Made by a program: the position numbers and the translations under genes. A DNA stretch of 11,105 nt from Alphaproteobacteria bacterium (GTDB lineage: Bacteria; Pseudomonadota; Alphaproteobacteria; Puniceispirillales; Puniceispirillaceae), in contig JAKMFG010000203.1 in assembly GCA_022425565.1 (NCBI GenBank), positions 1 through 11,105 of the forward strand. Direction: 5' to 3'. Each line of letters opens with the position of its first letter. The stretch's first letter is position 1. Below the pieces are notes generated by a model, which saw only the letters and a program-made list of their open reading frames with translations, ran no database searches and was not told the origin of the DNA. Below, in pieces: positions 7,194-10,140 of this stretch.

Positions 7194-7697
7194 ATGCGCC
7201 AGCCATGTCACGCAGGCCGTACCAAGAGCATAGCAATCTTGTGCCTGATGGTAAGTGGATACTATGATGCCGCTTTGCGAACCCATCTGATTTATCCCAC
7301 GACATTGGACCCGCTTCTCTCGGCCCAGCAGCCGATCCCCGTGCATGCGATTGCCGCACTGCTGGCCATAGTGCTTGGCGGATTCCAGCTCTGGGGTCCA
7401 AAGGGAACCCGCAACCACCGGATGCTGGGATATATCTGGGTCGGGTTGATGGCAATCGTCGGTTTTTCAGGGTTCTTCATCCATGGTCTCAGGCTGGTCG
7501 GACCCTTCAGCCCCATTCATCTGCTGTCCGCCAACACCCTTGTCAGCCTGTGGCATGCCATCCGCGCGGCGCGGCGCGGTGACATCAGGCGGCATCGCAA
7601 GACAATGGTGGTGCTGTTCTGGATGGCGCTGATCCTGACCGGGTTTTTCACCTTCTGGCCGGGCCGGGTGATGCATCAGGTGGTGACGGGGGCATGA
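7194..7697 (+). CDS. DUF2306-like small membrane protein, start uncertain
   Basis: Up to 167 residues with about four hydrophobic segments (near 51-66, 79-97, 105-122 and 137-155, counting from the ATG at 7194). The pattern NHRMLGYIWVGLM, FSPIHLLSA, RRGDIRRHRKTM and FFTFWPGR matches the DUF2306 family of predicted membrane proteins, whose function is unknown to me. Several His residues (51, 75, 97, 109, 121, 134) sit in or at the ends of helices and could bind haem b; that is inference. Possible starts are ATG 7194, ATG 7248, TTG 7275 and TTG 7305. Family resemblance begins only around LDPLLSAQQPIPVHA, encoded from TTG 7305. A promoter-like site at 7239-7268 would exclude the first two. None has a clear Shine-Dalgarno site. 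It ends 23 bases before the dehalogenase-like gene, so the two are probably co-transcribed. Confidence 0.75.
   Translation: MRQPCHAGRTKSIAILCLMVSGYYDAALRTHLIYPTTLDPLLSAQQPIPVHAIAALLAIVLGGFQLWGPKGTRNHRMLGYIWVGLMAIVGFSGFFIHGLRLVGPFSPIHLLSANTLVSLWHAIRAARRGDIRRHRKTMVVLFWMALILTGFFTFWPGRVMHQVVTGA
7239..7268 (+). promoter_or_regulatory. Sigma70-like promoter inside the 5' end of the DUF2306-like frame
   Basis: TTGTGC (7239-7244) and TATGAT (7263-7268) with an 18-base spacer give the same arrangement as the promoter at 1233-1262. The predicted start is near 7275. If it is real, translation of the membrane protein must begin at TTG 7275 (essentially leaderless) or TTG 7305, not at the upstream ATGs. 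Confidence 0.4.
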
Positions 7698-7720: not shown

Positions 7721-9034
7721 ATGAAGACGGATCGCGAAGCGCCACAGACAGCCAGTAAAAAGACCGCCAGTGACAAGACTGGCAGTGACAAGACTGGCAG
7801 TGACAAGACTGGCAGTAAAAAGACGGGCAGTAAAAACACGGGCAGCAACCGACCTGACAGCCGCATTTCCAAAATGGATCGGGCTGCCGGCTTCGAGATT
7901 GGCCCGGATTTCACGCGGTTCGACCAGATCAACGATATTTTCTCGCGTGCCTTCTGGGACGACCGGGTGAAGAGCGTCGACACCGACGCCTTTTTCGACA
8001 GCTATCGCCGCGCGCCGGCCCCGCGCCGCGCCGACGGTTTCACACAGCGTGACTTTGCCTTCCGGAACGCGGCCTGGGCGATTTCCGACATGGTCTCGGA
8101 ACGCGGCGGCGACCGCGGTTTGCGCGAAGGGTTTCAGGCGCTGATCGAGCCTGCCGTGCCAATCGCGCCGGACGCGGTGCCGCTTGCCACCGCGGCCGAG
8201 GAGAGCCGATCGATCAAGGCCGTCGCAAAGCGGTTTGGTGCGGATCTTGTCGGCATTGCCGAAATCGACCTTCGCTGGCATTACGCGACGAGAGTGGATG
8301 TGCGCGATTTCAGCAAGGCACCGAACGAGCTTCCGGACGGCATGACCCATGTCATCGTGATGGCGCATGAAATGGCACCGGAGCTGGTCGCCACCTATCC
8401 CTCGGCACTGGCCGGAGCTGCCACCGGCATGGAATATTCGCATGAGGCTGCCATCGCCATCCAGCTGGCAAGCTATATCCGCCATCTCGGATATGACGCT
8501 GTCGCCTCGATGAATGATACAGCGCTCGCGGTGCCCTATGCGATACAGGCGGGCCTTGGCGAATATGGCCGCAACCAGATGGTGCTGACGCCGGAATATG
8601 GTCCGCGTGTCAGATTTTCCAAGGTCTTTACATCACTGCCGCTTACGGCCGATACGCCGCGTCGCCTTGGTCTGCACGACTATTGCCAGAGCTGCACGCG
8701 ATGCGCCGATTCCTGTCCGCCGCGCGCGCTTCCTTTCGGTGGTCCAGAGGAGGGTGGTGACAGCCCGTCGACCATTCGCGGCGTGCGCAAATGGTCGGCA
8801 AACTGTGAGAAATGCTTTGGCTTCTGGGCCAAGCTCAGGAGTGATTGCGCCATCTGCATGCGGGTCTGCCCGTTCAACCGCAGCTATGACCGGTTGGCCG
8901 ACCGGCTGTGGCGATGGCTTGCAACAGGCCGCTGGCGACGTTTGGCAAGATGGTGGGCGGAGCGCTGGCCGGCCGAGCGGCGTTCGGCCTCGGACTGGTG
9001 GAAGAGGGCCGGTGACGGTAGTGGTGGCGACTAA
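7721..9034 (+). CDS. Reductive-dehalogenase-like (RdhA) corrinoid and 2x[4Fe-4S] protein
   Basis: A 437-residue protein. Residues 1-50 are a Lys/Ser/Thr/Gly repeat. Residues from about 160 to 310 match the corrinoid-binding nitroreductase-like core of RdhA proteins (SYIRHLGYDAVASMND, YAIQAGLGEYGRNQMVLTPE). Two ferredoxin-type clusters follow: C322xxC325xxC328xxxC332P, then C362/C365, C376xxC379xxxC383P. Y239, N265 and R298 are spaced 26 and 33 apart, as I recall for PceA Y246, N272 and R305. Known relatives use cobalamin and reduced iron-sulfur clusters to remove halide from organohalides. There is no Tat signal (no RRxFxK), so it should be cytoplasmic, and no C-terminal flavin/ferredoxin reductase part as in self-sufficient catabolic enzymes. 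The last 50 residues are Trp/Arg-rich. QueG is a relative, but the second cluster motif with its FGFW segment fits RdhA better. ATG 7874 (residue 52) is an alternative start that would skip the repeats. The substrate is unknown. Confidence 0.8.
   Translation: MKTDREAPQTASKKTASDKTGSDKTGSDKTGSKKTGSKNTGSNRPDSRISKMDRAAGFEIGPDFTRFDQINDIFSRAFWDDRVKSVDTDAFFDSYRRAPAPRRADGFTQRDFAFRNAAWAISDMVSERGGDRGLREGFQALIEPAVPIAPDAVPLATAAEESRSIKAVAKRFGADLVGIAEIDLRWHYATRVDVRDFSKAPNELPDGMTHVIVMAHEMAPELVATYPSALAGAATGMEYSHEAAIAIQLASYIRHLGYDAVASMNDTALAVPYAIQAGLGEYGRNQMVLTPEYGPRVRFSKVFTSLPLTADTPRRLGLHDYCQSCTRCADSCPPRALPFGGPEEGGDSPSTIRGVRKWSANCEKCFGFWAKLRSDCAICMRVCPFNRSYDRLADRLWRWLATGRWRRLARWWAERWPAERRSASDWWKRAGDGSGGD
7754..7858 (+). 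repeat. 15-bp in-frame tandem repeat, seven units
   Basis: Seven units of 15 bases start at 7754, 7769, 7784, 7799, 7814, 7829 and 7844. The second to fourth are identical (AGTGACAAGACTGGC); the others differ at a few positions. They encode the pentapeptide S-[D/K]-K-T-G and variants. Each unit is five codons, so gain or loss of units keeps the frame. The perfect central copies point to recent expansion. Confidence 0.95.
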
Positions 9035-10140
9035 AGCCCGAGTTCGCCCGCCATCCTGTCGATGGTGGCGCATTGCCAGGCGACATGATCGGTTGTCGGC
9101 TGCTGCTCGATGAATTTCGGCAGGAACGGATCGGCAAGCTCGCTTTCCATACCGGCAAGCCCCTCGACCACACGGTGCCCGCAAAAGGGAACATAGGCCT
9201 CTGAATAACCACCCTCATGGACCGCAACCACGCGGCCGTCGCACAGCCTGTCGGCAGCCTGCATGACCATCGCTGTCATCTCGGCATAGGTCGAAGACAG
9301 GCAGGACATGCGCGCCAGCGGGTCGGTATGGGCTGCATCAAGCCCGTTGGCGATGATGATGACATCCGGCTGGAAATCATCGATCAGCGGCACCACCACA
9401 CGGCGCATGGCATAGAGGTAGGCCTCGTGCCCGCATCCCGCCGGCAGTGGCAGGTTGGTGTTGGCACCCTTGCCGGCACCGGTACCGCGGTCTTCCAGCC
9501 CGGCATAGCCGGTCGGGAACATGTTGGCCTGGTGGATCGACAATGTGTGGACGTCCGGATCTTCATAGAAAATAGCCTGCGACCCGTTCCCGTGATGAAC
9601 ATCCCAGTCGAGAATGAAAAACCGCTCTGCCAGCCCGGCCGCACGCGCGGCGGCGATGGCGATCGGAATATTGGCCAGCAGACAGAACCCCATCGCGCCG
9701 TCTGCAAGGCAATGATGCCCGGGTGGGCGGGTCAGCGCATAGGCGGTGTCATATTCGCCTCGAAGGACCGACAATAGCGCCTCGCGGGCCAGTCCGGCTG
9801 ACTGGCAGGCAATCTCGAATGAGCCATGCCCGAACGGTGCGGAAATGCCGAGCATGCCGCCGCGCTTGTCGCTCAGCGCCTTGAATTCGGCGAGATAGCC
9901 GGCGTCATGTACTGCGCCGATCTCGGTGGCGCTTGCCGGGTCGGCATCGCGCTGCGCCAGTTGCGACAGCAGGCCCGACCGGTCCATCAGATTGCGCATG
10001 CGCCGTTTTGATTCCGGGCTTTCCGCATGGCCGCCTGCTGCCATCGGCTGAAGCCAGCCGCCGACCGGGGCGGTCAGGACCGCCTCGCCAGTGGTGTGCC
10101 AGAAACAGGCCTCGGAGAGAAAGAAAGCGGATTTACGCAT
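9031..10140 (-). CDS. Histone-deacetylase-family amidohydrolase (acetylpolyamine amidohydrolase-like)
   Basis: A 369-residue zinc hydrolase of the arginase/deacetylase fold, of usual bacterial length. RPPGHH (138-143) supplies the catalytic His pair. DWDVHHGNG (178-186) gives zinc ligands D180 and H182. NGLDAAHTDPLARM (265-278) gives the third ligand D268, and EGGY (309-312) supplies the transition-state tyrosine Y312. All catalytic residues are present. Bacterial members deacetylate acetylpolyamines or other N-acetyl or short-acyl amides; they have no histone role. The start has a strong AGGGAG Shine-Dalgarno. It lies 21 bases downstream of the TRAP permease stop on the same strand, implying one operon and a possible link between uptake and deacetylation. 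Its stop codon overlaps that of the convergent dehalogenase-like gene over bases 9031-9034. Confidence 0.92.
   Translation of the reverse strand: MRKSAFFLSEACFWHTTGEAVLTAPVGGWLQPMAAGGHAESPESKRRMRNLMDRSGLLSQLAQRDADPASATEIGAVHDAGYLAEFKALSDKRGGMLGISAPFGHGSFEIACQSAGLAREALLSVLRGEYDTAYALTRPPGHHCLADGAMGFCLLANIPIAIAAARAAGLAERFFILDWDVHHGNGSQAIFYEDPDVHTLSIHQANMFPTGYAGLEDRGTGAGKGANTNLPLPAGCGHEAYLYAMRRVVVPLIDDFQPDVIIIANGLDAAHTDPLARMSCLSSTYAEMTAMVMQAADRLCDGRVVAVHEGGYSEAYVPFCGHRVVEGLAGMESELADPFLPKFIEQQPTTDHVAWQCATIDRMAGELGL

Follow-up and report, generated by a model that had tools for sequence, protein, structure and literature searches.

What does a reductive dehalogenase do when it carries no export signal, has no membrane partner encoded beside it and is fused to no reductase of its own? 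The question is raised by an open reading frame (ORF) for 437 residues in an 11,105-nucleotide stretch of DNA, hereafter the window, which is contig JAKMFG010000203.1 of the assembly GCA_022425565.1 from an alphaproteobacterium of the Puniceispirillaceae. The original prediction, made from the sequence alone, regarded the product as fitting neither the respiratory nor the aerobic catabolic RdhA enzymes and hence as new or poorly described. This surprise was fair, because the scheme of four subfamilies set out by Fisher et al. (2023; PMC10463259) has, in the passages that present it, no place for a short, single-core form lacking a twin-arginine translocation (Tat) signal. The observation was confirmed and its interpretation was supported in part. 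We consider, with a probability of roughly three in four, that the window protein is a cytoplasmic, single-module reductive dehalogenase (RDH) dependent on a cobamide and two [4Fe-4S] clusters, of the same kind as Ros_A3X954 and a Pararhodobacter enzyme, and that it most likely acts on halophenols.

Identification of a short reductive dehalogenase

The window protein scored 165.6 bits against TIGR02486 (RDH; cut-off 160.35), which places it in the RdhA superfamily, and 30.9 bits against PF13486 (cut-off 24.3), in agreement with the RdhA-style corrinoid core that had been predicted. PF13486 matched a single core in the 437 residues, and neither a duplicated vestigial cobamide domain nor a fused reductase was found, the absence of the latter having also been foreseen. 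The ORF is a real gene under purifying selection. Compared with its nearest relative with DNA (locus L005, a metagenome-assembled genome named 'Rhodospirillaceae bacterium'), the ratio of nonsynonymous to synonymous substitution rates (dN/dS) was 0.063 over 385 codons with the variable tail excluded, and two upstream genes and one downstream gene agreed in strand and size between the two loci. The choice of the start codon was backed by the alike first residues of relatives P0002-P0007, as judged by eye. Residues 1-42 of the predicted structure had a predicted local distance difference test score (pLDDT) below 50; this tail, coded largely by a 15-bp repeat, differs in length between the window protein and its nearest relative P0002, in which it is shorter. 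The coordinates of the features are collected in Table 1.

Table 1 Features of the reductive dehalogenase gene and its flanking genes in the window.
Feature	Position	Strand	Basis	Remarks
Short Tat-less reductive dehalogenase (RdhA-type) gene	7721..9034	+	ORF	437 aa
15-bp in-frame tandem repeat	7753..7845	+	Tandem Repeats Finder; pLDDT	About 6 copies; KTGS-rich, probably disordered N-terminal tail
Corrinoid-binding core	8348..8644	+	hmmscan	PF13486 match, residues 210-308
Tyr239	8435..8437	+	Gap-free alignment	Matches PceA Tyr246; Glu238 and His241 on either side
Asn265	8513..8515	+	Gap-free alignment	Counterpart of PceA Asn272
Arg298	8612..8614	+	Gap-free alignment	Counterpart of PceA Arg305
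First [4Fe-4S] motif	8684..8719	+		CQSCTRCADSCP, residues 322-333, full CxxCxxCxxxCP
Second [4Fe-4S] ligands	8813..8872	+	Invariant columns	Cys365 and CAICMRVCP (376-384; CxxCxxxCP); includes Trp369
DUF2306 membrane protein gene	7248..7697	+		23 bp upstream; Pfam search made with the longest frame, from 7194
Histone-deacetylase-family gene	9031..10140	-		Convergent; overlaps the RDH stop by 4 bp

Two cluster motifs of the CxxCxxCxxxCP type had been predicted. The first is indeed a full motif of this type (CQSCTRCADSCP); the second is not, being the shorter CxxCxxxCP (CAICMRVCP) with Cys365 upstream. The spacing from the first to the second motif is 54 residues. The protein thus has both the two [4Fe-4S] motifs and the catalytic Tyr/Arg (or Lys) by which an RdhA is recognized. 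Residues 204-395 aligned to PceA of Sulfurospirillum multivorans without gaps and with a constant offset of 7; accordingly, the proposed match of Tyr239, Asn265, and Arg298 with the PceA active site held when the superposition was checked, and by the same offset Trp369 is the counterpart of Trp376. PMC5500849, in the part that concerns them, describes these four residues of PceA as surrounding bound bromophenols. Tyr239, Asn265, and Arg298 were invariant in all 121 aligned sequences (the query and 120 listed relatives). The flanking Glu238 and His241, both present in the window protein, were kept in 162 and 161 of 166 clade sequences, respectively (duplicates included). His187, a residue maybe near the pocket, was variable (134/166).

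A sequence search of solved structures gave the two PceA enzymes as the best matches (1.2e-44 and 6.6e-42), followed by NpRdhA (about 1e-25) and QueG (6e-11). In the structural comparison, PceA was likewise the nearest solved structure among the matches listed. The model and the alignment together indicate the same fold, cobamide core, both clusters, and the PceA-type Tyr-Asn-Arg-Trp set; nevertheless, identity in the structural alignment was 26%, and the window locus lacks RdhB. PceA is also exported through the Tat pathway, unlike the window protein.

Relation to Ros_A3X954

According to the sections of Li et al. (2026; PMC13101508) that deal with it, Ros_A3X954 from Roseobacter sp. MED193 was chosen from an uncharacterised cluster and expressed in E. 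coli; it has no Tat signal, a PF13486 match at 174-269, no ortholog group, and the motifs CDICTKCADACP at 283-294 and CAICMRVCP at 337-345. It converted 2,6-dibromophenol to 2-bromophenol with a kcat of 1.1 per s and a Km of 71 μM, and its identity to the Pararhodobacter enzyme, for which dehalogenation of 2,4,6-triiodophenol has been reported, is 72.2%.

An unchanged CAICMRVCP, spaced 54 residues from the first motif, is found in the window protein and, counting duplicates, in 146 of 167 clade sequences. The Pararhodobacter aggregans protein A0A2T7UTL8 is presumably RdhC1 of Ng & Silver 2024. As far as the published sections describe Ros_A3X954 and A0A2T7UTL8, the window protein shares with them the lack of Tat, the single PF13486 core, and CxxCxxCxxxCP followed by CAICMRVCP 54 residues away, and differs in its longer KTGS-repeat tail. 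Ten loci (L015, L016, L018, L020, L022, L032, L098, L101, L103, and L105) share the Ros_A3X954 motifs exactly, at 283 and 337 with starts as given by the gene caller, and their proteins share 58-64% identity with the window protein. By these sequence features, the window enzyme belongs to a recently described kind and is not new as a class, so that the claim of novelty in the original prediction fell to the portions of Li et al. (PMC13101508) cited above. Short Tat-less RDHs of this clade are common, yet our literature search found just two tested members; these locate cobamide-dependent debromination within aerobic heterotrophs.

Export signal, partner genes and comparison with other classes

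The first 60 residues were scanned for a Tat-like motif (RR.F[LIVMK]), which none of the 121 clade sequences contained; among 120 respiratory sequences taken for comparison, some of them fragments, 76 did. None of the 121 had a 19-residue stretch above the hydropathy threshold in a run without a transmembrane RdhA control. N-terminal transmembrane helices were not detected in the window protein, whose tail is hydrophilic and in whose model residues 1-46 form no helix. None of the 47 loci examined, the window included, had a small membrane ORF resembling RdhB within 700 bp, whereas the scan detected one beside each of three control RdhA genes. The neighbourhood sample consisted of 50 stretches (the window, L005-L033, and L093-L112), from which L095, L108, and L111 were dropped since the gene caller had missed the RDH; at least one contig was doubled (L014/L094). 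The two features of respiratory RdhAs, a Tat signal peptide and an adjacent rdhB, are therefore both lacking, as the original prediction had stated.

The catabolic enzymes NpRdhA, BhbA, and JtRdhA are, in the passages of PMC10463259 devoted to them, cytoplasmic and Tat-less like the window protein, and the characterised members of their type attack ortho-halophenols; they differ in having a vestigial duplicated cobamide domain and mostly a fused reductase. Catabolic RdhAs also had Lys in place of Arg298 in the five rows shown.

Phylogenetic position

A tree was built from 243 core columns of 85 sequences, among them 32 short forms, 14 long catabolic RdhAs, 27 respiratory-type RdhAs, and 7 QueG proteins. 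The short forms, the long catabolic RdhAs, and QueG formed three separate clades with a support of 100 each. In the maximum-likelihood (ML) tree, the short clade grouped with 25 of the 27 respiratory-type RdhAs (support 96; those 25 alone, 97) and stood apart from BhbA/NpRdhA. Three other placements survived approximately unbiased (AU) tests: a joint clade with the long catabolic RdhAs (p-AU 0.26-0.30), the short clade beside QueG and outside the other RdhAs (0.22-0.24), and the short clade as sister to a Sulfurospirillum sequence (0.48). Forcing it together with two alphaproteobacterial QueGs was 125.6 log-likelihood units worse (p-AU 9e-53). Consequently, our phylogenetic claim is limited to the statement that the short clade is not within QueG, the placement that had been named beforehand as fatal to the original prediction.

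Proposed reaction and alternatives

In the reaction that we propose, an unlinked ferredoxin or flavodoxin would pass electrons via the two clusters to the cobamide, reducing it to Co(I), which in turn would reduce a halogenated phenol-like aromatic positioned above the cobamide. Tyr239 would donate the proton and the halide would depart; the dehalogenated aromatic might then enter ordinary aerobic catabolism, or the reaction might be mere detoxification. The halophenol-type substrate is suggested by analogy with the two tested relatives, and the electron donor, ferredoxin or flavodoxin, is presumed to be coded elsewhere.

Several points weigh against this proposal. No electron donor gene is linked to the RDH gene in the window, and the gene neighbours there offer no clue to a substrate. 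Membership in the Ros_A3X954 kind was judged by printed motifs and coordinates. The AU tests allow the clade to join either the respiratory or the catabolic RdhAs. In addition, the same sections of Li et al. (PMC13101508) report that Ros_A3X954 as expressed contained approximately 8 Fe but only 0.11 Co per enzyme and that, by data not shown in that paper, it is highly sensitive to oxygen; such sensitivity is odd for aerobic hosts.

The alternative that survives best, although we think it rather unlikely, is a cobamide RDH whose natural substrate is another natural organohalide or a halogenated aromatic derived from an amino acid. The variation of His187 and the kynureninase-linked loci described below, in which Glu238 and His241 are both replaced by Gly, speak for it, and RDH sequence is a poor predictor of substrate in the passage of PMC6797604 on this subject. 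On the other hand, the two tested relatives work on halophenols in the sections of PMC13101508 mentioned above, and the window protein retains both Glu238 and His241.

The same corrinoid chemistry directed at a bond other than carbon-halogen, such as C-O or C-S, appears improbable. The window has no pointer to a halogenated substrate, and QueG demonstrates that this fold can reduce an epoxide; however, the Tyr/Asn/Arg/Trp set is identical to that of PceA and the characterised relatives dehalogenate. Far less probable is a respiratory dehalogenase reaching the periplasm by a non-Tat route: it would agree with the ML grouping and with PceA being nearest among the structural matches listed, but Tat and RdhB are absent across the clade and the N-terminal tail, a KTGS repeat, is hydrophilic. 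Little weight attaches to hydropathy over the first 70 residues, a test that picked out only 4 of 120 respiratory proteins.

An epoxyqueuosine reductase like QueG, the least probable of all, would have the cobamide/[4Fe-4S] core in common, and 7 of the 120 listed relatives bear that name (P0012, P0026, P0050, P0072, P0094, P0112, and P0121), but this identity was refuted by a TIGR00276 score of 51.8 bits against a cut-off of 200, by the AU test of joint placement, and by a separate, true QueG in the host genome (414.7 bits), and the PceA-type Asn and Arg are missing from the three QueG rows shown. The label on the seven relatives is likely a misannotation. Some database sources label relatives in the clade 'reductive dehalogenase'; since some others name members epoxyqueuosine reductase, the clade is probably undercounted in annotation.

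A kynureninase-linked branch outside the window

Of 15 genomes from the alphaproteobacterial order to which genome G791 belongs, 6 had a short RDH at E <= 1e-80, and a kynureninase gene directly followed it in five of the six; the sixth (L143) was cut by the contig end. The linked loci are L026-L029, L142, and L143, records that overlap with the sampled genomes and amount to six genes altogether. Tryptophan 2,3-dioxygenase came next after kynureninase in most of them, and Pfam confirmed both enzymes in L028; in L142, kynureninase followed the RDH and the dioxygenase was not found. Kynureninase itself occurred in 10 of the 15 genomes, and no RDH was found in about 4.2 kb around it in L148, L150, L153, and L154. 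Glu238 and His241 were both Gly in the RDHs of L026-L029 (4/4) and also in L142 and L143. A literature search found no paper combining 'reductive dehalogenase' and 'kynureninase'.

These results suggest a second, perhaps halo-tryptophan-derived, substrate class. The adjacency to kynureninase and the loss of the Glu/His pair point to halogenated tryptophan, kynurenine, or anthranilate of natural-product origin as the compounds dehalogenated; if true, the branch would be a route for halogenated tryptophan. Glu238 and His241 are intact in the window protein, whose own assignment is therefore unchanged. As a tentative extension, less likely to hold than to fail, the clade might represent a fifth architecture of RdhA, in which a cytoplasmic module of aerobic Alphaproteobacteria stands free, draws on housekeeping electron carriers and has diversified beyond halophenols, its kynureninase-linked sub-branch in one alphaproteobacterial family dehalogenating such natural-product compounds.

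Gene neighbourhood

Within five genes on each side of the RDH, every neighbour family was confined to 4 of 15 lineages at most. Those met most often, an HNH endonuclease (Pfam) and a glucose-6-phosphate dehydrogenase (by sequence reading only), are parts of one conserved block. Among the examined loci, the pairing of DUF2306 with the RDH was seen elsewhere solely in L005. The histone-deacetylase-family gene is a neighbour, not a partner, of the RDH; our guess is that its product is acetylpolyamine amidohydrolase-like. No cobalamin riboswitch was detected at the gathering score in the window and seven loci. An 11-bp tandem repeat of about six copies lies at 923-1003 of the window, just past a LysR-family gene.

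Host genome and distribution

The host genome is 82.6% complete and contains COX1, CobS, and CbiC; the haem-copper oxidase gene is compatible with an aerobe. It also has a second RdhA on contig C196 (L001), of the long catabolic type with the vestigial domain, the frame of which exceeds the fetched stretch.

The best 120 protein-search matches shared 61-91% identity with the window protein, and at least 1931 of 8000 scored candidates, which may include other RdhAs, reached E <= 1e-3. Close homologues (E <= 1e-60) were found in 13 of 385 sampled alphaproteobacterial genomes, the window's own counted, and in none of the four other listed genomes of its family. In the family of genome G083, 24 of 149 genomes had a short RDH at E < 1e-80. 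Loss or transfer fits such a patchy distribution. Long RdhAs were present in 15 of these 24 genomes versus 41 of the 125 without the short form (one-sided Fisher p 0.006, in a test that ignores the kinship of genomes and with rows counted by hand); a functional link between the two is suggestive only.

The G083 family (L088, L090, L092, and others) also has a separate clade of RdhA-like proteins of approximately 335 residues, in which Thr replaces Asn265 in the two rows shown. Several short RdhA-like genes may occur in one genome: G394 has four (349-403 aa) together with one of 756 aa, and G710 has three.
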